Shown here piece after piece: positions 3,766 to 29,945 of a stretch of 31,965 bases of DNA. Origin of the DNA: a virus; IMG/VR virus record IMGVR_UViG_3300020162_001456, positions 1 through 31,965 of that record; one strand, written 5' to 3'. The notes beneath the pieces were generated by a model. That model did not search any database. It had not been told where the DNA came from and was given only the letters and a program-made list of their open reading frames with translations. Numbering within the stretch: position 1 is the first letter of the stretch; every line of letters begins with the position of its first letter. A program made the position numbers and the translations under genes.

Positions 3766-5352
3766 TTAGCCTGTTACGATAATTCTGTAGGCGCCGTTGC
3801 CGATAGCCCCCAGAAGGGTGACGCTCACTGTGTTGACATCGGTACGGGTAACATCACCAATAACCGTGGCTCCTGAAGCGACCTCCACAATCTGAACAAT
3901 TACATCAAGAGTGTTGAAGTTATGAACAACTGACGTTGTTGAAACATTGTCAACGTGCACTGCACAGGCCTTGGTAGCAATACGGGCAAGTGATGGAGTA
4001 CTTGTTCCGCGGCCTGTTGCTTCGGCGGATGTTGATGCCAAGTTAGTACGGGCAGTTGCTTCGGTCGTTGCGTTAGTGCCACCATTGGCGATACCAAGCG
4101 TCCCAGTGATACCAGTAGTCAACGGGAGTCCAGTTACGTTGGTGAGCGTTCCTGATGCTGGGGTTCCAAGTTCTGGGGTGGTCAGCGTAGGGCTGGTGAG
4201 CGTCTTGTTGGTGAGAGTCTCAGTCCCCGCCAAGGTAGAAAGAGTTCCCGTGGTAGGCAGGGTTACGCTCGTAGTAGCGGTCGTGGTCAGCGTCGTAGCG
4301 TGGGCACCAGAGGTAGTTAAGTTGCCACCAAGGGTTATTGTCTTGCCAGTATTGGCGACACCCGTGCCACCATACTGACCAGTAACGGCTGTACCGTTCC
4401 ACGTACCGGTAGTAATTGTTCCAAGGGTTGTGATGGTTGCTTGACCCACATAAGTGGTATCGATATCGATAGCGTCTGAAGAAACAGAGATACGGCCCGC
4501 TGTTCCAACGGCATTAATCGTAGTCCCACTCTTGGTGAGACCATCGCCAGCGGTGAAGGCTCCAGCACCAGAGAACTGAGCCCAGACAATTGCGTCCGTA
4601 CCTACGGTAATGGCTCCGTTGCTTGTTACAACAAAACCGGCGTCAGCATTAGCAATACCTTCTTCAACAAATGTGAACGCTCCGCCAGATACTTCACCCG
4701 CACCATCAAAGTCTGTAGCACGAACAGGAGCGCCGCTAGACTGGACTACGTAAATACCGTTTTCAGAAGCAGTGCCTTGGTTCTTTACGAGGATACGGTC
4801 GCCAGTGGCAAGCACCACTCCGTCAATTGTATCGCCATTTTCTAGACCAGAAGCGAGAAGAATGGCACCGGTGGTTGCTGCACGGACTGACTGCTTGACA
4901 TCTAGACCTGAACGAGCAGCATCAACGTAGCCCTTGGTAGCAGCGTGACCGTCATCGGTGGGAGTGGCAACGCTTATGTTCCCATTTCCATCACGTTTTA
5001 CAAGTTTGTTCGCAGTGGCGCTGGACGTTGCCCCATTGAGGTCACCAAAGAATGCGGCACTAAGCAAACCTGCGCTATCGGCATCAGCGACATTGAGGGT
5101 AAGGGTAACGGTACCGTTGGACTCGGAAACAGTAAGGGCTTCGGCAATGCCTACGCCGCCACCTGAAGTAATGCTATGTACTGTCTTTCGCCATGCAGCG
5201 TTTGCGTACACCATAAGGCTGAATGTGGCAGTATTGAAGTACATGCGGCCTTCAAAGTTGCCGGTACTGGGGTTGGTGGCTAGTGCCTCAAACGTTGCGT
5301 TAATTAGTTGATTCTGATTGAGGTCAATATTTGTTAGAAACTTCTGAGCCAT
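3766..5352 (-). CDS. Tail fibre protein
   Basis: This is a 528-residue fibre-like protein. It starts [19 protein letters not shown], a start shared in style with the collagen-like gene after it. A region with [16 protein letters not shown] near residues 130-145 is typical of phage tail fibres. Residues 153-265 hold the [16 protein letters not shown] module also seen in the spike-fibre and the 785-residue protein. Thr/Gly-rich fibre repeats ([13 protein letters not shown]) follow, and the C-terminus is a small beta domain ([15 protein letters not shown]) that may bind a ligand or cap the trimer. The start is supported by AAGGA eight bases upstream, which also contains the stop of the previous gene. 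It is probably a receptor-side fibre; the exact attachment point is unknown. Confidence 0.8.
4558..4896 (-). repeat. DGV/KNQ module in the 528-residue fibre
   Basis: Residues 153-265 read [57 protein letters not shown] and end in AQFSGAG. It is closest to the copy in the spike-fibre (about 12855-13203), which also ends in QFSGAG. Confidence 0.7.
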
Positions 5353-5361
5353 GGTGTTTCC

Positions 5362-5700
5362 TTAGGTGAGGTAAGCGAATCCCGAGAATGCAGCACTAAA
5401 TATTATTCGTACCTGAGTGCTAGATAGATATTGTATCTCACCATAGACAACTGTATTGCTAGAATCCACGACCATAACGCTAGGATTGCCCCCTAGAGTA
5501 TGGGTAATGGTCCATGTTGAGGACACCGACCCCTGCGTATGGACGTGTCGCCTGGTTACGCCAGAAGCGATAGACCCCGTAGTTACCGTAACGTTGTTGA
5601 CTACTGTTTGTACGGTAATTAGATTCTGGTCTTCTTGATTAACGGTGACAGTATTTGGCGTATCTTGCTGAATATTGACAGTATTGGGTATGCCGGTCAT
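5362..5700 (-). CDS. Small tail protein with C-terminal beta domain
   Basis: This is a 112-residue protein. The first 35 residues are Asn/Thr/Val-rich and may form an elongated beta strand or coiled stem. The C-terminal half reads HVHTQGSVSSTWTITHTLGG, then PSVMVVDSS and a final FSGFAYL. This pattern is shared by small domains at the tips of many phage fibres, and the end of the 528-residue fibre (HNFNT...VIVQIV) is similar. The start overlaps the stop of the preceding gene as ATGA, so the two are probably translationally coupled. It is likely a virion fibre accessory; family recognised only by pattern. Confidence 0.65.
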   Translation of the reverse strand: MTGIPNTVNIQQDTPNTVTVNQEDQNLITVQTVVNNVTVTTGSIASGVTRRHVHTQGSVSSTWTITHTLGGNPSVMVVDSSNTVVYGEIQYLSSTQVRIIFSAAFSGFAYLT

Positions 5701-6221
5701 CGGGTAACCTCAGGAAGTAGCGTAAATGCACCTTTGAGAAGTTTTGATACTTCGCTTGCTGAGTTTATTATTTCCAGGTCGTATACTCCGCTTGTTTCAA
5801 GTGTTGCCGTCTGTGCTGCCGACATACGAATAGTTAGTTCTCCACTTGGGGAGTAGGCTGTTCCTGTTCCGCTGCCCACTCCAGTGGCTACAAATGATGT
5901 TCCTGCCGTATTGTTGGCAGCGCCAATTGCCGTAAAGGATGTATTGCCTGCAGTTAGAATGACGTATCTTGTTCCTACAACGAAAGAACCGGCATTAACC
6001 GTTGACGCAGTAGTATATGTGATGCCATTATTTGCTGTCGTGAGTTCAATCATGACAACAGATGACTCAATTGTTCGCCGTATCTGCATTCTTCCCGTAA
6101 AACCAGCAAAGTTGAACGGGAGCATCGAACTGGCGTCGTTAGGGTCGGGGTATTCCACCGTAATGATGCGACTGAACGTCGAGCCCTGCTCACAAGTTAT
6201 ATTGTATGTACCAGCAAGCAT
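5697..6221 (-). CDS. Small tail/baseplate protein with inserted module
   Basis: This 174-residue protein has an outer part (YNITCEQGSTFSRIITVEY, GFTGRMQIRR, then GELTIRMSAAQTATLETSGVYDLEI and a final PEVTR) that matches a family of about 100-residue beta proteins found near phage tail fibres. Residues 70-124 are an insertion with FTAIGAANNTAGTSF and GSGTGTA, placed in the loop between GITY and GELTI. GGAG lies eight bases before the ATG. It follows the holin and precedes fibre genes, so a role in fibre attachment is inferred. Confidence 0.7.
   Translation of the reverse strand: MLAGTYNITCEQGSTFSRIITVEYPDPNDASSMLPFNFAGFTGRMQIRRTIESSVVMIELTTANNGITYTTASTVNAGSFVVGTRYVILTAGNTSFTAIGAANNTAGTSFVATGVGSGTGTAYSPSGELTIRMSAAQTATLETSGVYDLEIINSASEVSKLLKGAFTLLPEVTR
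5850..6014 (-). repeat. Inserted FTAIGA-type module
   Basis: About 55 residues (NAGSFVVGTRYVILTAGNTS, then FTAIGAANNTAGTSF and GSGTGTAY) interrupt an otherwise continuous small tail protein. Similar modules occur in structural proteins of other large phages. Only one copy is in this window. Confidence 0.6.
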
Positions 6222-6832: not shown

Positions 6833-9190
6833 TTATCCCAACTCTCCTGTACCAATGATACTCGAACCAATAGTGAATACGCCGAAGTTATCTACCACAA
6901 TGTGAGTCATTATAAAACCCATGGGCACAGTAGGTGCAATGGCAGCAAGAATAACTTCAGATGAAGTGTTCCCGTTATAAATACCCAAAGTTTCATCTTT
7001 TAATGTGGAGATAATAATTTCAAAAGGATGAGAATATGTAATTCTTACTTCCTTGTCTCCTGTGAGGTAGCGCTTTATCGTCTCCGCAAGTGACTCCAGT
7101 GAACCCGCCTTATAGCCGTAGTGCTTATTCTTTATTTGCCATAGTTTAAATTCATCTTCGTCGTCCCACGCAAAAGGTTTTGTCGTTGCGGTAAATGTTG
7201 GACTACCGCTATTTATCGTTGTGGCTGAATCTAGTGTGAACATTGTTTTAGAACTAGTTGTGCCAGCGCCCCATACGTAAGTCCTAAATCCCTCCGCTAA
7301 AACTAATGATGCCGCCATATTCTCGGCACGCGCTGGAGTGGCCCCAACCTTGTAGAGGCCATTCTCGCTAGCAGTTGTTTGGTTTTTTACTAAAACATAA
7401 TCATTAGTTGCTAGCGTCACTCCGTCAATAATGTCTGCGTTATTGAGTGCCGTCGCTATGGCGATATTGTCCGTAGTGGCGACTTTTGCGGAAACCTGTT
7501 TTACTGCAAGTGTTATGGTATCGGTGCCTATAACTGGCCATGTTGCATTAGAAGGTGACCACATCGTCATTTTATTAACGGTTCCTTCCCTAATAAAAAT
7601 CAGGTCCGGAGATGTCGTGTTTACGGCTTTTTTAACCGTGCCTGCTGAGTCGGTTACTGTGGCGACAGCGGTAGAAGCAACCGTGAATGTGTTGGTTGTT
7701 ACTGAATCTATAATGAACTGTCCGTTATAGCCGCTTGGGGCAAGGCCAGCAATAACAACGGGTTGCCCAGCAGTTAGTCCATGCGAACTGGCGGTGTATG
7801 TTACGTATCCAGATGATGGAGTCGTTGGAGCGACTGCCGTAATGTTAGTGGATGATGCCGCCATACCGGTCCATCGCGCCGGCGTAGTACCAACAATATA
7901 AATTCCATTTTGGCTTGCTGTTGATTGATTTTTTACCAATACACGGTCCGCATCGGCGAGTACTACCCCATCAATTGAATCTCCGGCATTAAGCGCTGTA
8001 GATATGGTGATATTGGCCGTAGTTGCACAGCGCACTTTTATTGTAGAGCCATAGTCTGCTGATTCATCTGAATAAATTGATGAATAGCACTTCGTTTGTC
8101 CAACAATTTGAGAAAGCCAGTTGTAGTAATCAGGTGATGCGCTATCCGGGTCTACTAAAGAACTCTGATTAATATTGTCATCGATTGCGACGAACCCCGA
8201 TTGCAGGTTTGGGTCATAACGGGAAATTGATACATACCTATCTACGACTTGTTCTACGCCGCTTGTTAGTGTGTGCACTAATTTTGCCACTGGATTTTGT
8301 GGATTTGATTCCTCGTCAATATCAATATAAACTTGAGGAAATTGGCTTAGTCCAAAATTTGTTGAGTAAGAAGCAAATATTCTATTCATGTCTACTATTT
8401 TAGGAATAGTTATATATACCTTGTTTCTGCCATGTCCTGTAATGGAAAATGACATGCCACAGACAAGGTCCTCGCCCGAATATTGAGGGAACGGGAATGA
8501 TTGCTCTAATGCAGCGGGTTCTAATTTGTTGGCATATGCCGCTGTGGGGAAAATATGGTCTTTAGTAGTGTCAGCGACAGTAAAAAAGTTGTTACACGCA
8601 TACTGAACGGTTGCTGTATTTGTTGAGAAATCGGGCAACGGTGAAGTAGTCCCATATATGTTGACCGCTTCTCCTCGCTTGAATAAGTTGTCTCCAATAT
8701 ATTTTATAAAAGTGCCATTACCAAAAATTTCTGATATGAGTGCTGTTTTTCTTTTTAACACAGATATCTCCCCTGTTTTCACAGGGGCTTGAACCAAGGG
8801 GGTCAGTGTTGTTTGGGCTGACCTTGAAGTACTGCGCGAAGCATCAAGTGTAGACCTAGTAGTCAATGTGGAGTTAACAGTAATTGCACTGCTGGATTTG
8901 AAAAGTGCATGACCAATCAATTTGTATGAATTAAAGTTAGTTGCAATTACGCCAGGTACGGAAATATTGTCTATTGACAACGTGATAGCGCCATCATTAT
9001 CGGCCTGTAATTCAAATGTATAGAAGAGTTGATATTCTCTATTTTCTAAAGAGATTGCAAACGTTGATGCATTTGACGCCGTCCAGCCAGACATGGCTGT
9101 GGTAATTTCGGTATAAGCACGAGGGATGTCACTGTCCGAAATCGCGAATAGACTCTGGTCGCGTGATAAAAAACTTTCTGCGTACGGCAT
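6833..9190 (-). CDS. Large baseplate/tail protein with nested modules
   Basis: This 785-residue protein is encoded directly after baseplate J and coupled to it by a TAATG overlap. Residues 1-380 and 672-785 look like one unique protein that I do not recognise. Between them, residues 385-563 and 567-670 are two copies of the DGV...KNQ.TAS.NG module. The first copy is itself interrupted at about 451-520 by an HG...PSGYN module. By position it could be the T4 gp7/gp8-like wedge partner of baseplate J or a tail protein I-type adapter, but no motif proves this. The modules are probably surface decorations rather than part of the functional core. Confidence 0.6.
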   Translation of the reverse strand: MPYAESFLSRDQSLFAISDSDIPRAYTEITTAMSGWTASNASTFAISLENREYQLFYTFELQADNDGAITLSIDNISVPGVIATNFNSYKLIGHALFKSSSAITVNSTLTTRSTLDASRSTSRSAQTTLTPLVQAPVKTGEISVLKRKTALISEIFGNGTFIKYIGDNLFKRGEAVNIYGTTSPLPDFSTNTATVQYACNNFFTVADTTKDHIFPTAAYANKLEPAALEQSFPFPQYSGEDLVCGMSFSITGHGRNKVYITIPKIVDMNRIFASYSTNFGLSQFPQVYIDIDEESNPQNPVAKLVHTLTSGVEQVVDRYVSISRYDPNLQSGFVAIDDNINQSSLVDPDSASPDYYNWLSQIVGQTKCYSSIYSDESADYGSTIKVRCATTANITISTALNAGDSIDGVVLADADRVLVKNQSTASQNGIYIVGTTPARWTGMAASSTNITAVAPTTPSSGYVTYTASSHGLTAGQPVVIAGLAPSGYNGQFIIDSVTTNTFTVASTAVATVTDSAGTVKKAVNTTSPDLIFIREGTVNKMTMWSPSNATWPVIGTDTITLAVKQVSAKVATTDNIAIATALNNADIIDGVTLATNDYVLVKNQTTASENGLYKVGATPARAENMAASLVLAEGFRTYVWGAGTTSSKTMFTLDSATTINSGSPTFTATTKPFAWDDEDEFKLWQIKNKHYGYKAGSLESLAETIKRYLTGDKEVRITYSHPFEIIISTLKDETLGIYNGNTSSEVILAAIAPTVPMGFIMTHIVVDNFGVFTIGSSIIGTGELG
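7181..7492 (-). repeat. DGV/KNQ module, copy B
   Basis: Residues 567-670 of the 785-residue protein run SAKVATTDNIAIATALNNAD, IIDGVTLATNDYVLVKNQTT, ASENGLYKVGATPARAENMA. This copy is uninterrupted and adjoins copy A. Confidence 0.7.
7502..8038 (-). repeat. DGV/KNQ module, copy A, interrupted
   Basis: Residues 385-563 of the 785-residue protein run KVRCATTANITIST, DSIDGVVLADADRVLVKNQ, ASQNGIYIVGTTPARW. After an insertion the module resumes with LIFIREGTVNKMTMW and closes near VIGTDTITLAV. Without the insertion, copy A lines up with copy B next to it. Confidence 0.7.
7631..7840 (-). repeat. HG/PSGYN module nested in copy A
   Basis: About 70 residues read YVTYTASSHGLTAGQPVVIA, GLAPSGYNGQFIIDSVTTNT, FTV. 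It is related to modules in the connector gene (27431-27652) and in the likely tail terminator gene (25871-26089). It sits inside the DGV/KNQ copy, splitting ARWTGMAAS from the following strand. Confidence 0.7.
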
Positions 9191-10716
9191 TACAAAGACT
9201 CGGTAGACAGCGTTACGGTAACTGCGGTCACTGGGACGTCTGGCAAAACACCACGATTAAGGAAATTTAAGGTAGTGCTGGTCGAAGTTTCGTGGAAATG
9301 TTCCCTTAGAGAACTTGCGGCGACCGTAGATGTATAGTCTGTTTCTATCGTAAATGTCGTTGCATTAATCTTTGATTTAACTGCTATTGAATTATTAGTG
9401 TAGGCAGTGCCCGAAGCATCGGTAAGTCTTATCCTTTGTCCAATTTGGAGTTTTGCTACATCTGCTGACAAGGCGGTAATTTTGACATCGCTACCTCCAG
9501 TATTCGCCGTCTCTCCACTCCCGGCCACTACCGTATAGGACAGTGCTGCAGGCGGGGTGAATTGCACTGAGTTCACATACCTCAATCCAGGAACCGTAGA
9601 AAGCAATCTTGAAATAATTGTTGATTCTCTAATTCTTGGTGACGCAACGCTCAATTCTTCGTATGGGAAATTTTGTGGAGACAAAAAGGAAGAAATTGAT
9701 ACTTTAATCAATTCTTCGGCATAAGCAAAATCGTAGTTGGAATCAATTGCGGCGTCTACAACGACACCACCACTTGTCGCAAGTTGCGCAGTTTTGAAAT
9801 TGTATGTGCCCACTTCTAGTCCGGCCATTACTCTTTCTGCGGCGAATAGTTGTATTTCGTTTATTTGGTTAGTGGTTAGTGGGCCTGTATATCCATATAG
9901 AAAAATTGACACAAAACCCTTATAGTTTGACGATATCAAATTCTTCCCTGTGTCTGGTGTGAATGTTAAAACGCCCAAATCCGGCCGGTTGGTATTGTCG
10001 GGAATGCCAGCATTCATTAAATCGTAAACCTTGCAGCGAGATACGTATGAAAAGTTCACCAAAATTGCTGCTTCTAATTGTTTCGCAGTAACGAAGGTAG
10101 TCGATATTGATTCAAGAAATGTTTTGGCTGAGTTGAGATATTCTTGGTCGGTAAGTGGGTTGAGGCCATTTTGAAAACTTGTAAAAGTCACAGTATTGAT
10201 TTCTGTATCAGTTGATAACGGCATCAATGTAGTCGTTCCGACGACCGGCTCGGGCATTTCTTCAAAACTACTGCTCACCAAATTGATGGTTCCGGTAGGT
10301 GGGCCTCCATCAACAATTATCGTGTCTTCAGATGCAACAAATAAATAATCCGTCTCATATCCGGCCGTTGTATTGACGTACCTGTATCTAAATTCCGTTC
10401 CGGTTGGTATGACTTCTCCAGTTGTCCCATAGAGGACCACCTCAGCCGTTGCTGTCGCCCTTATGCCGATGGGGCGCTCGTAACCCATCAAAGATACGAG
10501 ACCCTGCATGAGGCCATTGGGGACCCTGTTGATTGAATTCGTTGCTGTAGCACCTAGAAATGCAGCACTTTGGAATAAGGCATCCTCTAGTGTGCCACGC
10601 CGCAAATTAAAGTCAGGCATAACAGAGCGGCCAACTTCAATCATTTCTCGATACAGTTGACCTGCGTCTTTGTCATGTATGGTTAGATTAATGTAATCGG
10701 AAAAGTCTGCTGGCAT
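9190..10716 (-). CDS. Baseplate J-like protein
   Basis: This 508-residue protein matches the P2 gpJ / T4 gp6 type baseplate wedge family. N-terminal features are INLTIHDKDAGQLYREMIEV and a FNLRRGTLEDALFQ segment. GYERPIGIRATATAEVVLYG and PTGTEFRY follow, the usual start of the J core, with a middle region DQEYLNSAKTFLESISTTFV. Two J-like wedge copies normally form the ring that joins the hub to the fibres. It follows gp25-like with GAGG seven bases before its ATG and overlaps the next gene as TAATG. The C-terminal 100 residues (about 395-480) contain an extra Thr/Ser-rich beta segment with some resemblance to the HG/PSGYN modules. The family call is well supported by sequence and context. Confidence 0.87.
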   Translation of the reverse strand: MPADFSDYINLTIHDKDAGQLYREMIEVGRSVMPDFNLRRGTLEDALFQSAAFLGATATNSINRVPNGLMQGLVSLMGYERPIGIRATATAEVVLYGTTGEVIPTGTEFRYRYVNTTAGYETDYLFVASEDTIIVDGGPPTGTINLVSSSFEEMPEPVVGTTTLMPLSTDTEINTVTFTSFQNGLNPLTDQEYLNSAKTFLESISTTFVTAKQLEAAILVNFSYVSRCKVYDLMNAGIPDNTNRPDLGVLTFTPDTGKNLISSNYKGFVSIFLYGYTGPLTTNQINEIQLFAAERVMAGLEVGTYNFKTAQLATSGGVVVDAAIDSNYDFAYAEELIKVSISSFLSPQNFPYEELSVASPRIRESTIISRLLSTVPGLRYVNSVQFTPPAALSYTVVAGSGETANTGGSDVKITALSADVAKLQIGQRIRLTDASGTAYTNNSIAVKSKINATTFTIETDYTSTVAASSLREHFHETSTSTTLNFLNRGVLPDVPVTAVTVTLSTESL

Positions 10717-11074: not shown

Positions 11075-11233
11075 TTACTCTGGCGATACTTCTGCAGTTG
11101 CTCGTGACGCATTGAGGGTAGCCTTGAGCGACGAGGCGGTTGCCTCTAGGACGGCAATCCTCTGTGCCTGTGCTGCAATCTGATTCGTCAAAGATTCAAT
11201 AATCTTATTGACATCAATCTGTACGTCATCCAT
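11075..11233 (-). CDS. Small coiled-coil tail protein
   Basis: This is a 52-residue ORF beginning MDDVQIDVNKIIESLTNQIA and ending in SPE. Hydrophobic residues at heptad-like spacing (V, I, I, L, I, I, V, L) predict one helix able to form a coiled coil. Its ATG overlaps the stop of the spike-fibre gene as TAATG, and GGAG lies eight bases upstream, so it is probably translated by coupling. Short coiled-coil proteins at this place are common in phage baseplate clusters, but their role is mostly unknown. No domain is recognised. Confidence 0.65.
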   Translation of the reverse strand: MDDVQIDVNKIIESLTNQIAAQAQRIAVLEATASSLKATLNASRATAEVSPE

Positions 11234-14200
11234 TACTTGTTCTCCAGTGCTTCAATTCTCTCCATGAGTGAGGTTACTTTAGCATCAAGTTCTTTGATGG
11301 CGGCAACTGTTATTGCCGTAAGGGCAACATTGTCAATCGATGAATATTCACCTTTTCTGTCAATATTGGCTGCTTGTGGAACAACCGCACCAACCTCCTG
11401 TGCGATAAACCCAATATTCCCATTTTCCCAGTTCTTAGTCCACGGGCATGGGTTCTCAGCGGTTCCATCACAGTTGTCCCGAGCGCAATCATGTCTTAGT
11501 TCGTCAGATTGAAATGGTTCAAGTCCTGCAGAATTACGGATTCTATTAAGGCGGGAAAGTGCCGTTGCTCGCCGTGGGTTGCTTGGTAATTGAGCAAAGT
11601 GCAGTTCTTCTTTCCATCTATAGTTAACGGGTCGTAATTGACGTACGACATTTAAGCCCGTCAATAATTCATCTTCATTGACTGCCGCACTGGCAGACTT
11701 GACAATTTGTGGGAATGCTTCAATATCTTGCTTATCATGGACAGAAGACTGATTGCTAATAATCGCATAAAATGTGCAATATATACTGTCATTAGCGTTT
11801 CTTAAATAAACATCATTTGCGTTGGCGGCTACACGAAACTGCGGAGCGACACTGCTTGCCCATAATGACATGCCCGCTATGGTTCCACCACTACCACCTC
11901 TTAGTGCCATTAATGCATGGTCGGACGAGTTTGCCGAGGTTGTTCCGTTGATAATGCTTGAGGTAAATGTTGTTGCGCTAGAGGAAGCCGCAGTGCTTGC
12001 GGACCCAGCAGAATCTGCATAACCGACATGAGTATCAGCGTGAGCAGTGTTGTTAAGATAACCATACAAACGCCAACGCGAACCAGTCCAGTATGTTTGA
12101 ACATTATAAGCATCGTCGTAATCGTTGCGGTATAGTCGTGTTGCTCCAGGTCTCCCTGCGCTTGTCCACATGCCAGTCTGACCAGTAATACTAGAGGCTG
12201 CCAAACCACCAGAAAATGTCGTTGCAGTAACCGTCCCCGGGAAAGAAGTATTGCCAGAACCATCTAGCAATGTTGCCGTCCTTGTTAATGTCGTAAACAC
12301 TCCCGTGTATTGTCTTACATAAATGGGTTCAGTTGCATCGTCTGCTGTTGCAATTTCTACATAGCCAGCATTAGTTGCTGTTCCACCAATTCTAATACGA
12401 AATTGGTCATTATCTGCCATGTTTCCGTATATTAAATCGGCAGTGTTTGTTCCAGTAACAGTTTTTGTCAAAGTACCATTGATAGCGTTAGTTACAGTTA
12501 AGTTAGTTAAAGTACCTACAGAAGTTAGCGAAGAAAGAGTTGCCACGTTTGTATAGGCGACCGTTCCACCAGCACCAAAGGCGACCGATGATGCATCAGT
12601 GCCCGTAAGCGTAAGTGTATTAGAGGCAGTAAGTGTTTTGCCATCAGCAATAGTTAAAGTAGCCGCAGTCGCTGGTGGAGTTAAAGTAATTTTATTAACT
12701 GTAGTTGCAGACGCTACTCCCAAAGTCGGAGTAGTTAGTACGGGTGAAGTAAGTGTTTTGTTTGTAAATGTTTGCGCCGTTGTAAGGTCTGCCGTGACTC
12801 CCGTATTAATTGACAGTGTGTTGCCAGACTTGGATAATCCAGTACCAGCAGTGATTTGTCCAGCACCAGAGAACTGTGTGAAAGTAAGTGATGTTGTGTC
12901 AAGTGTGATTGTGTCGTTAGTCGTGAGCACATAGCCCATATCGGCACTGACGGTGCCTTCAGAAACAAATACATACATTCCGCTTGTAACTTTTGCTGAC
13001 GTATTCGCATCAGTGGACCTTGATGCTACTCCAGATGCTACGACAACATAGATGCCGTTTTCTGAGGCTGTTGTTTGGTTCTTGAGCAGAACACGGTTGC
13101 CTGTTGCTACAACTACGCCATCAATTGTTGAGCCGTTTATGAGGGCAGATGCAATGACGATGTTTGCTGTTGATGCGACACGAACTGAATCTTTAATGTC
13201 AAGGCTCTGCGTGATGGCATCCGCGTAGGCTTTAGTGACAGCGTCGGTTGAGTTTGTTGGAGTTGGGACTGTTACGGTACCAGTGAAAGTTGGAGAAGCA
13301 ATGTTTGCCTTCAAATCTAACGCTGTCTGCTGTGCAGTAGAAACAGGTTTGGCCGTATCCGCAGTATTATCAACACTACCCAAACCAACCATTGTTTTGG
13401 TAATACCAGAAACAGTTCCAGTAAATGTAGGTGAAGCCAACTTCGCGTAACCTTGACCTACAACATAGGCAGTGGTTGCAATTTGTGTCGTATTCGTATC
13501 TACGGCAGCAGTAGTGCTTAAAGGTGTACCAGTAAAAGTAGGTGAAGCAATGTTTGCTTTCAAGTTATCTGCCGTAGTCACAAATGCTGTAGTAGCAACT
13601 TTGGTACTTGAATCGGCAGCAGTTTGCGTCGTGGCGATAGTGCCTGTTGGAAGCGTCGGTGTACCAGTAAAAGTTGGAGAAGCAATGTCTGCCTTCAAAG
13701 CATTATTGCCATTGAGTTTCTGTATTGCCTGCAAAATGCTATCCGTAGCAGCAACGGTTCCAGCACCCGAAACATAACCCGTCAATACTTTGGCGATAAC
13801 AGGAGCGTTCGTTAAGGTTGTAGCATTACCAATCGATGTGACATCACCAGTCAAGTTGGCGTTAGTTACAACAGTTGCTGCGTTACCAACAGACGTGACA
13901 CCACCAGTAAGGTTTGCGTTAGTGATTACAGTAGTAGCAGTACCCGACACGTTGCCTGTTAACGCACCAGTAAAAGCCGTAGCAGTAACAGTTCCCACCA
14001 CCTGAAGTGCTGTTGAAGGGGAAACTGTACCAATGCCAACACGGTTATTTGTTGCATCAACGCTGAATGTTGACGTATCAACTGTAACTCCACCAATAAT
14101 GGTTGCTGACTGGAATGTTGGGGTATTTGTGTTGGTCCAGTTGGAACCGTTATATGCCAATATGTCGTTGGCTGCTGTTGTTGTGAGACCCACATCGGTC

Positions 14201-15462
14201 AGCGAGGAGAGTGCCGATGCCCCAATACCAATATTAATGGCCTGATTTGCCCTAATGTCGGCGACGCTAGCGAGACGTGACTTTACAGCATTCGTGTACC
14301 CATTATTGGTTTCATAAATCAACTTATATAGCGGGCGAATCTCAACAATCGGCAATCCCGTTAAGTCTAAGTCCGCATAGGAAACATCTTCAGCCTGACC
14401 AATATTGTCACCAACTGTTTGTCCTAGGATTCCTATGACTGGCTCATTGAGGTTGTTTGTAGCGACAATCCAAGTAACTCCGAATTTGCCACTTGTCATG
14501 TCGGGTGTTGACCAAGTACCGCCAGACGACAAGTTATATGTTGCCCGAGTACTTCCATATTTGACGGGGTATGCAGTTGCCGTATCTAGGCGCCACGAGC
14601 CACCGGAACCAAAACGGTAAAACATTGGGATATACGCGGGTGATTGAAGTCTTTGTTCCCATGTGTTCGCGGTTGGCGTTGCGCTATGAGTGATATTGAC
14701 TTCTAGGTCTTCGTCAAAGAATGTTCCGTTCTCGATGCTTATCTGCATGTCGGCATTGGAACTACCAGTACCAGCGAGGGTGTAGCCACTTGCCCCTAGG
14801 CCTTCTGCTAACGAGGCACCGCGAGTTCTATGAAGATACTCATGCGTTGCCCAATCAAGAGTTACGCCGTGTCTTTCGTCAGCAAAAAACTCTGCTTCAG
14901 CAGTTACGGAGTTATAGTAAATATATGCCGTCGGAGCATCCTGGTCCCAAGTAAAAAACGATGTCTTAGAAGATAAAACTCCAGTAGAACTGTAGTAGAT
15001 GTAATAAAGACCAGTAGTGTCTGGAAGAGTAATACTTTCTGCGGCGGTCTTGGTATAACGCTTTCCAAGGCACCAGACATTGAATGAATCTCCAACGGGG
15101 GCTATATTAAAAACGCGAGTGCTGTTATTGAAAGAGATAACACTTTCTGTTTTATCTTCATGTCCAATTGGCTCGGTAGTTGCTGCTTCTGCTCCAGGAC
15201 GGTCGGTGAGGCGACCAATGACGACCATCTCGCTTTTTTGGTTATCTAGATATGCGACCAAAACTTCGTCATCTATAACAAATTCTTCATCATGTTGTTT
15301 TCCGACAACACGGCAGGGCCCAATATTGATGCCCAGCATTTTGACGAATACGCGAAGACTGCCATCATTGTAGACGAGCGTTATTTTCCCTTGGAATATC
15401 CCACCAGGTTCAGATGCGTTGTTTGCGCTGCCATTACGGCTAGAGCGTGGGTTGAGTGCCAT
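11233..15462 (-). CDS. Spike OB-fold / fibre / S74 chaperone fusion
   Basis: This is a 1,409-residue multidomain virion protein. Residues 22-92 (GIFQGKITLVYNDGSLRVFV, then DDEVLVAYLDN and MVVIGRLTDRP) look like the gp5/gpV OB-fold that seats the membrane-piercing spike in the hub. A long fibre part follows, with LASPTFTGT repeats at about 590-735, a DGV/KNQ module at about 754-869, and TLTSPVLTTPTLG repeats. About residues 1239-1409 are an S74-type intramolecular chaperone (LRPVNYRWKEE, GNIGFIAQEVGAVVPQA, SIDNVALTAITVAAIKELDA), which trimerises the fibre and often cleaves itself off. That domain carries an insertion of about 60 residues with three cysteines. The start overlaps the stop of the hub gene as TAATG. 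Joining spike and S74-tipped fibre in one chain is unusual. Confidence 0.8.
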   Translation of the reverse strand: MALNPRSSRNGSANNASEPGGIFQGKITLVYNDGSLRVFVKMLGINIGPCRVVGKQHDEEFVIDDEVLVAYLDNQKSEMVVIGRLTDRPGAEAATTEPIGHEDKTESVISFNNSTRVFNIAPVGDSFNVWCLGKRYTKTAAESITLPDTTGLYYIYYSSTGVLSSKTSFFTWDQDAPTAYIYYNSVTAEAEFFADERHGVTLDWATHEYLHRTRGASLAEGLGASGYTLAGTGSSNADMQISIENGTFFDEDLEVNITHSATPTANTWEQRLQSPAYIPMFYRFGSGGSWRLDTATAYPVKYGSTRATYNLSSGGTWSTPDMTSGKFGVTWIVATNNLNEPVIGILGQTVGDNIGQAEDVSYADLDLTGLPIVEIRPLYKLIYETNNGYTNAVKSRLASVADIRANQAINIGIGASALSSLTDVGLTTTAANDILAYNGSNWTNTNTPTFQSATIIGGVTVDTSTFSVDATNNRVGIGTVSPSTALQVVGTVTATAFTGALTGNVSGTATTVITNANLTGGVTSVGNAATVVTNANLTGDVTSIGNATTLTNAPVIAKVLTGYVSGAGTVAATDSILQAIQKLNGNNALKADIASPTFTGTPTLPTGTIATTQTAADSSTKVATTAFVTTADNLKANIASPTFTGTPLSTTAAVDTNTTQIATTAYVVGQGYAKLASPTFTGTVSGITKTMVGLGSVDNTADTAKPVSTAQQTALDLKANIASPTFTGTVTVPTPTNSTDAVTKAYADAITQSLDIKDSVRVASTANIVIASALINGSTIDGVVVATGNRVLLKNQTTASENGIYVVVASGVASRSTDANTSAKVTSGMYVFVSEGTVSADMGYVLTTNDTITLDTTSLTFTQFSGAGQITAGTGLSKSGNTLSINTGVTADLTTAQTFTNKTLTSPVLTTPTLGVASATTVNKITLTPPATAATLTIADGKTLTASNTLTLTGTDASSVAFGAGGTVAYTNVATLSSLTSVGTLTNLTVTNAINGTLTKTVTGTNTADLIYGNMADNDQFRIRIGGTATNAGYVEIATADDATEPIYVRQYTGVFTTLTRTATLLDGSGNTSFPGTVTATTFSGGLAASSITGQTGMWTSAGRPGATRLYRNDYDDAYNVQTYWTGSRWRLYGYLNNTAHADTHVGYADSAGSASTAASSSATTFTSSIINGTTSANSSDHALMALRGGSGGTIAGMSLWASSVAPQFRVAANANDVYLRNANDSIYCTFYAIISNQSSVHDKQDIEAFPQIVKSASAAVNEDELLTGLNVVRQLRPVNYRWKEELHFAQLPSNPRRATALSRLNRIRNSAGLEPFQSDELRHDCARDNCDGTAENPCPWTKNWENGNIGFIAQEVGAVVPQAANIDRKGEYSSIDNVALTAITVAAIKELDAKVTSLMERIEALENK
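12855..13203 (-). repeat. DGV/KNQ module in the spike-fibre
   Basis: At about residues 754-869 of the 1,409-residue protein the sequence reads [52 protein letters not shown] and ends TFTQFSGAG. Boundaries are approximate. Confidence 0.7.
13265..13695 (-). repeat. SPTFTGT fibre repeats
   Basis: Four units contain ASPTFTGT followed by Thr/Val-rich spacers and TTAFVT or TKAYADA-like ends. Such repeats form shaft segments in many tail fibres. They are spaced at about 100-200 bases and vary at the DNA level. Confidence 0.75.
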
Positions 15463-26702: not shown

Positions 26703-27152
26703 CTACCCAGCCGCGTGCTCGGCCGCTGCATCTGCCCACTTACGCTCATACCGCTCGGTAACAAAAACAACAGGGCGGGCGGGCATATTGCGCGTACCCG
26801 ACTGATGAAACTCGGCATATTTGATGTTTGTACCAAAAGTTGCTTCTTTTTTATCTATTTTATTAGGATTACCACGCAAATCGGAGAGTGACTGAAATAG
26901 TTTTCCACTACGAATCATTGGGGTTTTCCCTGGAAAGTGAACAGATTTCCATGAGCCATATTCTGCATCAAGGGGCTTCCAGCCACCAGCGGGTAGTCCA
27001 TTTTGTAGAAAGTTATTTTTCCAAAGTGTTTTAAGGTCTTCTTTTGCTTCTTTGAAGACTGGGCCAAAGTCGTCTAGGTTGTCTTTGATTTTTTCAATTT
27101 CATCAGGGATGTCATTGTCAATCATCCGAACCTTAATGTCTATACTTGCCAT
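26703..27152 (-). CDS. Tail completion / virion morphogenesis protein
   Basis: This 149-residue protein resembles the Mu gpG and HK97 gp10-type morphogenesis proteins. It has an N-terminal strand and helix (IDIKVRMIDNDIPDEIEKIK), GGWKPLDAEYGSWK, MIRSGKLFQSLSD, and YAEFHQSGTRNMPARPVVFV. The GKL..SL and FHQ.GT...PARP motifs are hallmarks of the family. It acts at the head-tail joining step. The ATG overlaps the stop of the connector gene as TAATG. C-terminal residues DAAAEHAAG end the protein normally; no truncation is seen. Confidence 0.85.
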   Translation of the reverse strand: MASIDIKVRMIDNDIPDEIEKIKDNLDDFGPVFKEAKEDLKTLWKNNFLQNGLPAGGWKPLDAEYGSWKSVHFPGKTPMIRSGKLFQSLSDLRGNPNKIDKKEATFGTNIKYAEFHQSGTRNMPARPVVFVTERYERKWADAAAEHAAG

Positions 27153-28012
27153 TAGGAGACCCTCACTCGCCGATATCGCTTGAGTGTCATTAACTCACGT
27201 TCAGTGAATCCAGTTTCCAATGGGGCAACATTGCGTGATTCAAGGTCTTTGATACCAACGACATCGTCATGCATGTTCTGCATCTCACGAGTAGCGGCAC
27301 GCAGAATCATTAACTTGAATACGGGAATATTAGAACCGTCAAGACCAGCATTATAGGAAACCTCGAATATATCGTTAGCGAAACCACGATAAACATCTAT
27401 TCCATATCTTCTAACTGTGTAGTCATATCCAAAGGCATTTACCAAACCGCCTGAAACGAATGCACTGATATTGCTCGTGAATCCATCAACAACAAATGTT
27501 GATGAGGTTACGCTCGTAATCTCTCTGTCAACGATGTTGTAGCCAGATGGAGTAATCCCAGTTACGGTCACATGCTGCCCTCTGGTAAAGCCGTGCGATG
27601 CTGCGGTGTAAGTAACGTTAGTGCCAGCCTTGACTGCACCAGTCACCGTAGCGCGTCTATCTACTGCCTCCGCCATATAAAGGCCAGGAGTTGATGTATT
27701 GATAATTTTTACATAATTAACTTTAGAAACAGGAGAATTACGAAAAACAATTGTCGGCGATGGCTGAGAGTACGACAGGGGATTCATCGTTGTATCTAAT
27801 GAGGTGTTGTAAAAGAACGACGATGTGGGCATCCCTACGTGGTCATACGGTAAAACATATTGTTCCGTGAATTCCTCAACCTCTATCGGCCTACGAAGAT
27901 ATGATTCCAACTCGCTTTGAAGACCTTCAAGGACATATTCGGCAGCATCCTGCTGACGCAGGCTAAAGGAGATATCCATGTAGGTGACAAGGTCATTTAC
28001 TGTGACCAGCAT
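27152..28012 (-). CDS. Head-tail connector, gp6-like, with inserted module
   Basis: This 286-residue protein starts MLVTVNDLVTYMDISFSLRQ with DAAEYVLEGLQSELESYLRR, the helical beginning of gp6/gp15-type connectors that bind the portal. The region resumes at DYTVRRYGIDVYRG and continues through EVSYNAGLDGSNIPVFKLMI, which matches the family. Between them, residues about 121-194 are an HG/PSGYN module that ordinary connectors of about 200 residues lack. A very strong GGAGG lies seven bases before the ATG. The portal and capsid genes that usually precede it are not upstream here. Confidence 0.78.
   Translation of the reverse strand: MLVTVNDLVTYMDISFSLRQQDAAEYVLEGLQSELESYLRRPIEVEEFTEQYVLPYDHVGMPTSSFFYNTSLDTTMNPLSYSQPSPTIVFRNSPVSKVNYVKIINTSTPGLYMAEAVDRRATVTGAVKAGTNVTYTAASHGFTRGQHVTVTGITPSGYNIVDREITSVTSSTFVVDGFTSNISAFVSGGLVNAFGYDYTVRRYGIDVYRGFANDIFEVSYNAGLDGSNIPVFKLMILRAATREMQNMHDDVVGIKDLESRNVAPLETGFTERELMTLKRYRRVRVS
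27431..27652 (-). repeat. HG/PSGYN module inside the connector
   Basis: Residues 121-194 contain NVTYTAASHGFTRGQHVTVT, GITPSGYNIVDREITSVTSS and TFVVDGFTSN. It is the best match to the copy nested in the 785-residue protein (TYTASSHGLTAGQ, PSGYN). It splits VDRR from FGYDYTV of the connector fold. Confidence 0.7.
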
Positions 28013-28808: not shown

Positions 28809-29945
28809 TTACAATTCCTCTTCTAGTTGTTGAAGTGCCGCTTGGCGGACCGTGTGTGCGCGCGTCTTTGGTCCTACAGGGGTAACCGTATGGCCCCATA
28901 GGGCATGCATAAATAATGAGCGAATTAGTGATTCCAGTGGATAAGAATATGGGTCCTTGGCGTGTTTTTGCCTAAATTCTGCAGAATAGGCTTTTGCTCG
29001 CTGAGCCGTATCTTGCCCCCAGCAGAATTGTTTAATAAATGGCATTACGCCATCCCAGCCTTTTGCGGCAGTCATTGCAATCAACTTCTCAACATCAAAC
29101 TCCGACCACCACCGTCTTTGGGCGTCAATCATTGGAAAGACATCGTAAAGACGGTCATAGAAGTCTGGCTCTGTTGCGATTACGTCACCAATGCGTCTCG
29201 CTGCAACGCTATGGAGTGGATGTCCAACACGATTATTAGAGCCAGTCAAGGCTGCCAGGTCGTAATACTCGCAATATGGGGCATTGTGCTCTTCGGAAAG
29301 AAACTTAAAAACATCATCAATCTGCCAATCGTAAATAATTTTTGCAAACTTTACTGGCAACCCTTTCTTGGATTTGAATGGGGTAACGATGTAGTTCTCA
29401 TTGAGTTTCTGAACACACGACCTGTACCGAACCATGGACTCTGCTGCTCGTACACCAGTAATAAAAGCAATATTGCCTCGCTTGCCAGCGGTCGTGTAGT
29501 AGTCAATGTGTTCAGGGATTGGCGTATAATGGTCCAGGCCAAAGTGGTATGCGGTTATCGCGCCGTCAGGAATGGGTCTAAAAAGACGATTGCTTTCAAT
29601 TCTGGCGCCAGACCAAATCATTTCATCAAGTCGGCGCCCGAGGGACCACACCTCGAGGCCCTGGGGCATGCAAAACCACTCCATGTCAATCCAGTCAAGC
29701 CCCCTGATGTATTCGACATAGCGTTCTACCGCTGGGCTAACGAATTCTTCATCACGAAAAATAACCTTAACTGGGCCTAGTCCACGCTCTTCGTGGATTT
29801 CTTTGGCTAAGTACAGGACTGCCGAGGAGTCTTTTCCTCCAGAAAATTGCACACACACCGAATCAAAGGTGTCATATACGTGCCTGATTCTTTGCCTCGC
29901 AGCCTCCACGCAAGAGATATCCAAGAACATGCGCTGACGGGTCAT
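28809..29945 (-). CDS. PAPS-reductase-like PP-loop protein, IbrA-like
   Basis: This 378-residue protein belongs to the adenosine-phosphosulfate reductase/PP-loop ATP-pyrophosphatase superfamily. SGGKDSSAV at about 35-43 is the ATP-binding PP-loop. Later motifs are FRDEEFVSP, GVRAAESMVRYRSCV and IYDWQIDDVFKFLSEE, in the order seen in IbrA and similar proteins, with a C-terminal part (about 250-378) like DUF3440. The family activates substrates by adenylation; true sulfate reduction is unproven here. It may modify DNA, RNA or a small molecule together with the ParB-like partner. The ATG overlaps the end of the previous gene. Confidence 0.8.
   Translation of the reverse strand: MTRQRMFLDISCVEAARQRIRHVYDTFDSVCVQFSGGKDSSAVLYLAKEIHEERGLGPVKVIFRDEEFVSPAVERYVEYIRGLDWIDMEWFCMPQGLEVWSLGRRLDEMIWSGARIESNRLFRPIPDGAITAYHFGLDHYTPIPEHIDYYTTAGKRGNIAFITGVRAAESMVRYRSCVQKLNENYIVTPFKSKKGLPVKFAKIIYDWQIDDVFKFLSEEHNAPYCEYYDLAALTGSNNRVGHPLHSVAARRIGDVIATEPDFYDRLYDVFPMIDAQRRWWSEFDVEKLIAMTAAKGWDGVMPFIKQFCWGQDTAQRAKAYSAEFRQKHAKDPYSYPLESLIRSLFMHALWGHTVTPVGPKTRAHTVRQAALQQLEEEL

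Follow-up and report, generated by a model that had tools for sequence, protein, structure and literature searches.

Domain shuffling among phage tail proteins is already known: domains are exchanged among tail, baseplate and receptor-binding proteins, and this mosaicism is ongoing between close relatives (Smug et al., 2023; PMC10684548). Domains inserted into phage structural proteins are also known. In the evolved Dit, CBMs are inserted in a loop of the galectin domain (PMC9692632), and the tail tube protein of YSD1 has an inserted domain (PMC8718954). For the endosialidase of phage K1F, S460R was named among the changes that discriminate between hosts, in loops of its beta-barrel (PMC12632334).

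Here, a 785-aa structural protein is described from a stretch of viral DNA of 31,965 nt (IMG/VR record IMGVR_UViG_3300020162_001456), the whole of which is called the window. In this protein, a pair of DGV/KNQ (DGV) modules cuts a conserved scaffold, and the first of them, copy A, is itself interrupted by an HG/PSGYN (HG) module. Compared with the mosaicism of Smug et al. (2023; PMC10684548), in which a text search found no "nested" or "inserted" domains, the window adds a domain within a domain within a scaffold loop. The evolved Dit is alike in carrying adhesion-type domains in loops of a tail-tip scaffold, but the scaffold is another one, the window family uses at least three loops, and its inserted domains are themselves acceptors. 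An FCCH-like beta-barrel of the K1F and phi92 endosialidases matches the window insert (Z 8.6–10.0), whereas its host there is a catalytic tailspike and the window protein has no recognised enzyme domain. With E1_FCCH (PF16190) of ubiquitin-activating enzymes the insert has the fold in common, and there is no sign of a catalytic role in the window protein. New here is that nesting recurs within a single scaffold family and reaches three levels, and that alleles of this family are found empty, filled or swapped.

Organization and gene context of the 785-aa protein

The conserved scaffold is cut by the A-B module block (aa 385–670; Table 1). Its core (aa ~226–383) is common to the window, L208, L127, L109 and the L023 group (L numbers denote retrieved loci). 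The HMM of the N-terminal scaffold part reached E 9e-23 in L118, 9e-15 in L127 and about 1e-11 to 6e-10 in the L023 group, and that of the C-terminal part reached 6e-16 in L109, 1e-12 in L118 and about 1e-12 to 1e-10 in the L023 group. The HG/FCCH-like stretch of the N-terminal part is weak in the window (conditional E 1e-3) and scores 4e-11 to 8e-8 in L003–L006 and L013/L014. The DGV module matches the PHROG 27782/16867/11518/2647 group ("tail fiber", "head decoration"; best 2.5e-20). Neither Pfam nor PHROG yielded a family for the scaffold itself, and the whole 785-aa protein had no hit at E<=1 in Pfam or in a PDB sequence search. Alignment A1, scanned against bacterial and archaeal genomes, found no relative of the protein, and in the phage collection the modules were present, but no record spanned 80% of its length.

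Table 1. Features of the 785-aa protein, its neighbour and other module-bearing ORFs of the window.
Feature	Position	Strand	Evidence or remark
785-aa structural protein ORF	6833..9190	(-)	start overlaps end of baseplate-J-like gene; full-length relatives in viral contigs
Scaffold N-terminal part, aa 1-384	8039..9190	(-)	alignments A2, A7, A10
Weak HG/FCCH-like stretch, aa ~152-210, in N-terminal scaffold	8561..8737	(-)	HMM
Copy A of DGV module, 5' part, aa 385-446	7853..8038	(-)	DGV HMM 1-77, E 4e-27
Inserted HG/PSGYN module, aa 447-519 (+/-5), 73 aa, FCCH-like beta-barrel	7634..7852	(-)	HG HMM 1-62, E 2e-22; VIA matches
Copy A of DGV module, 3' part, aa 520-566	7493..7633	(-)	DGV HMM 48-102, E 2e-4; alignment A16
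Copy B of DGV module, uninterrupted, aa 567-670	7181..7492	(-)	DGV HMM 2-103, E 6e-34; 48% identical to copy A
Scaffold C-terminal part, aa 671-785, resumes core cut by A-B cassette	6836..7180	(-)	alignments A3, A8
Baseplate-J-like neighbour	9190..10716	(-)	85% identical to L001:2426-4018
Second HG module, in 286-aa connector-like ORF 27152-28012	27443..27631	(-)	E1_FCCH 22.1 bits, under 29.5 cutoff
DGV module in 1409-aa tail-fibre-like ORF 11233-15462	12859..13185	(-)	
DGV module in 528-aa ORF 3766-5352	4558..4890	(-)	

In phage P2, gpI is encoded directly after gpJ. The gene of the 785-aa protein likewise directly follows a J-like gene. The L001 relative of this J-like gene (L001:2426-4018) has a weak Baseplate_J match (E 0.01, under the cutoff), and the gene before the L023 homologue matches Baseplate_J (PF04865) at 1.1e-13. 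A tail-protein-I Pfam match was sought for the scaffolds of the window, L023, L109 and L178, and none was found. Because the scaffold, in this differing from gpI, has no sequence match to any Pfam family and no PHROG family of its own, it is described as gpI-like purely by gene order. The original prediction spoke of a baseplate gene, with which the position beside the J-like gene agrees, but no family match backs the name. In the J-like protein of the window, aa ~390–470 look HG-like by eye and fall below threshold with the HG profile. The J-like proteins L208:3682-5034 and L213:3403-5034 contain a CBM_5_12-like stretch (20–22 bits, under the 26.2 cutoff) that the J-like protein of the window lacks.

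Interruption of copy A

It had been proposed that copy A is interrupted after ARWTGMAAS by a complete HG module and that copy B beside it is uninterrupted, and both statements were borne out by separate HMMs, by the gap of an alignment and by the identity of the two copies after deletion of the insert. The DGV and HG profiles, built from 116 DGV and 127 HG modules of sequences other than the window, read the block in the order DGV 1–77, HG 1–62, DGV 48–102 and DGV 2–103; the third of these pieces scores weakly when the window is taken by itself (2e-4), and most relatives give 4e-6 to 8e-7 for it. Unguided MAFFT, given copy A together with about 30 DGV modules that have no interruption, placed a single gap, which falls exactly over the HG module. 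After in silico deletion of aa 447–519, copies A and B were 48% identical over 104 aa, with a score of 178 vs a best of 26 in 300 shuffles. Across the retrieved loci, 138 distinct uninterrupted DGV modules stand against 11 two-piece instances.

The landmarks of the block are KVRCATT from aa 385 (8038), ARWTGMAAS up to aa 446 (7853) and KKAV from aa 520. The HG junction is good to about 5 residues, because the 3' half of copy A is weakly conserved and the folded model puts the inserted barrel at aa 445–523; within this error the boundaries given earlier (residues 451–520, nt 7502–8038) are right. Alignments A11 and A15 contained the A-HG-B segment together with single HG and single DGV modules; they placed DGV wrongly on HG and were rejected. 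Alignment A16, with copy A only and without single HG modules, aligned correctly and was used for folding.

Empty, filled and differently filled sites in relatives

Every close relative from viral contigs (n = 10) retains the nesting where its sequence includes the region. More distant homologues of the scaffold, retrieved with profiles made from the scaffold alone, provide the relatives without one or both insertions for which the original prediction had called. In L109 (336 aa, its 5' end lying beyond the stretch covered), the scaffold core is uninterrupted and holds no DGV or HG module, and L208/L213 (L118 group) carry a pair of uninterrupted DGV modules at the site that the block occupies in the window (site 1). 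The scaffold proteins of L178 and L182 have no DGV or HG, and a short different stretch occupies site 1. In the L023 group (15 loci) and L098, site 1 is empty and one uninterrupted DGV lies at a third site near the C terminus. At site 3 of L023 and L029–L042, the DGV alleles depart from scaffold relatedness; the scaffold of L041 is nearest to that of L030 and its module is like that of L032. In L127, site 1 is empty, site 2 holds a DUF5122 propeller (3.6e-38) containing a DGV containing an HG, which is inserted after DGV position 39, and site 3 holds two HG.

Other relatives are differently filled. L216 and L217, with flanks 95–97% nt identical to L208, have HG inserted in copy B, at the DGV position that is interrupted in copy A of the window, and L216 has a different insert of ~60 aa in copy A. 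The DGV DNA of L216 beside the inserts is only 84–88% identical to that of L208, so this comparison shows import of interrupted modules and not primary insertion. In L005, L006 and L007, copy A is interrupted twice, with ~370 aa extra with CBM-like repeats in its 3' part (L006 is incomplete at the stretch end); the extra insert of L005 scores 21.2 bits with CBM_4_9 (PF02018), below the 25.9 cutoff, which makes this a resemblance only. Insertions occupy at least three sites of the scaffold and several positions of DGV, and insertion into DGV modules has happened several independent times and in several loops.

Modules in other proteins and possible host contact

Both modules recur in other ORFs of the window (Table 1). 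In L128:1928-3019, a relative of the connector-like ORF, two tandem HG modules stand at the same place, and in L128:4765-5214 an HG module stands at the start of a tail-sheath-like ORF. The HG copies of L127 score 37.5 bits with E1_FCCH, above its 29.5 cutoff. An HG-type module (phrog_9998, 4.5e-9) is found in L178:1700-3442, the ORF upstream of the L178 scaffold. An intramolecular chaperone of the Peptidase_S74 type (25.3 bits, cutoff 22) forms the C-terminal end of the tail-fibre-like protein of the window. A third module type (AGSFVVGTRYVILTAGNTSFTAIGAANNTAGTSFVATG) is apparently inserted, at about 5862–5993, in a 174-aa protein (5697–6221, minus strand; phrog_1084), whose flanks are L-shaped tail fibre assembly-like. 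A phosphoadenosine phosphosulfate reductase gene (28809–29945, minus strand; phrog_2302, 2.1e-63) adjoins the structural genes.

In the mechanism proposed here, the 785-aa ORF would be a baseplate-region scaffold in the place of P2 gpI, and small beta-sheet domains would be taken up in its exposed loops. One of these loops (site 1) would have come to hold a DGV pair in the window lineage, with later insertion of an FCCH-like HG into a loop of the first DGV. The interrupted modules would then have spread and changed, with recombination swapping the cassette while the scaffold stays, and homologous recombination in conserved flanks or modules may have moved the cassettes. Long shared A/B DNA runs were considered as a general handle for recombination and rejected: the run is 40 nt in L208 and only 14 nt in the window, vs 11 in shuffles. 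The surface position of the sites is taken from where the insertions lie, because the full-length AlphaFold2 model of the 785-aa protein with 7 relatives had a pLDDT of 40 and was not used. The cassettes would face away from the virion and touch glycans or receptors on the host surface, and their gain or exchange would thus change adsorption. The K1F stretch matched by the window insert (421–506) contains position 460.

The nested modules might instead be near-neutral cargo, tolerated by flexible loops and spread by recombination, with no adhesion function. This is a serious rival because HG is also found in connector-like and sheath proteins, which are unlikely to bind hosts, and the matching beta-barrel region of the K1F endosialidase is described as largely permissive to mutation (PMC12632334). 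We nevertheless consider it rather unlikely, as HG is in frame and conserved in nine of nine window-clade scaffolds and alleles are exchanged at the slot. The block is probably an exchangeable surface-display cassette on a baseplate-region protein, one that would alter host contact.

Order of events

In the module tree, the A copies of the window clade form one group (100/98), and its sister group (95/88) consists of the B copies (100/99). HG stands at one position in all window-clade A copies and in no B copy of that clade, so a single HG insertion into copy A after the A/B duplication is the simplest reading of the sequences. It could be argued that HG was present before the duplication and then lost from copy B, the apparent insertion being a deletion, given that A and B are sisters with an unobserved ancestral state and that copy B of L216 carries HG at the same position. 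This is improbable: it requires a gain and a loss vs one gain, every window-clade B copy is free of HG, uninterrupted DGV modules far outnumber two-piece ones, and the HG of L216 is about 40–55% identical to its nearest HG modules, among which that of the window is not found.

The A and B copies of L208/L213 group together elsewhere in the tree (98/88), so this pair shows a state and not an ancestor; it is either an independent duplication or homogenised. An ancestry of window clade and L208 from a single common A-B pair was considered and is unsupported by the module tree. In the scaffold tree, whose backbone is unresolved, the nine scaffolds of the window clade fall together (96/100). Of the sequential insertion that had been proposed, with an order readable from the nesting, the step of HG insertion after duplication is supported. 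The module tree gives no support to the L208/L213 pair as the direct ancestor, and the history is not stepwise only, whole cassettes having been exchanged.

Cassette exchange between viruses

Flanks and cassettes differ in their relatedness. L005 and L014 have flanks 95.6 and 96.0% identical in nucleotides and cassette modules 74.4 and 72.4% identical, whereas the cassette modules of L005 and L006 are 93.9–97.5% identical and their N flanks 55.9%. Between L001 and L002, the scaffolds are 80–83% identical (nt) and HG 57%; between L002 and L004, the scaffolds are 54–61% and HG 76%. These nucleotide identities show the module block to move as a cassette between divergent scaffolds. The CBM-like insert needs two changes in the scaffold tree, which is consistent with transfer.

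Every relative of the 785-aa protein is a metagenomic contig, and the mosaics could in principle be assembly chimeras. This is highly improbable, because identical or near-identical alleles recur in independent metagenomes (L005/L007 99.9%; L216/L217 100%; L208 and four others 100%); reading frames are also open throughout and the break points lie at module edges.

Fold of the inserted module

Copy A with its insert (aa 385–566) was folded by AlphaFold2 from a 40-row alignment, and the best of five models had a mean pLDDT of 91 and a pTM of 0.82, the others ranging in pLDDT from 61 to 85. By VIA-align, model residues 61–139, which are the insert alone, match the FCCH domain of UBA6 and UBA1 (Z 10.4, rmsd 1.8 over 74 residues), the endosialidases of phi92 (Z 10.0; phi92 253–338) and K1F/NF (Z 8.6–8.7; K1F 421–506), and small beta-domains of phage tail chains (FCWL1, a head-to-tail chain, Z 9.2; T1, Z 8.4). 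Since the insert alone matches solved single domains with matching ends, HG is predicted to be an autonomous domain. One inseparable fold of the two modules had been named as the finding that would speak against nesting; in the confident model of copy A, solved domains cover residues 61–139 only, and on this model the HG insert is a domain separate from DGV. Foldseek matches to predicted tail fibres and capsid decoration proteins of viruses extend over about 180 columns at a TM of about 0.5, a span suggestive of DGV halves that close around the insert. That DGV and HG form one composite fold, the apparent split being a pattern of repeated beta-strand motifs, can be set aside almost entirely: both modules are small, beta-rich and similar in composition, and some alignments confused them, but their separate full-coverage HMMs, the many uninterrupted DGV modules and the match of solved domains to the insert alone refute it within model accuracy.

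Significance

The poor annotation of environmental phage virion proteins is partly explained by these modules, since the same module can turn up in fibres, baseplate proteins, connectors and sheaths alike, and family assignments made from whole proteins are then misleading. The 785-aa protein may, with about even chances, represent a previously undescribed family of baseplate scaffolds that acts as a domain-display platform. Its loops would accept beta-domains, which would accept further domains (three levels in L127: propeller, DGV, HG), and nested cassettes exchanged between divergent phages would create new surfaces for host contact more rapidly than point mutation does. Domain insertion is one of the main routes to new proteins, yet its steps are rarely preserved. 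Here, relatives preserve the empty scaffold, the single, the nested and the second insertion and the wholesale swap, some with flanks 95–97% identical in DNA. These preserved states make it testable which loops tolerate insertion, in which order domains were added and what effect new domains have on adsorption.
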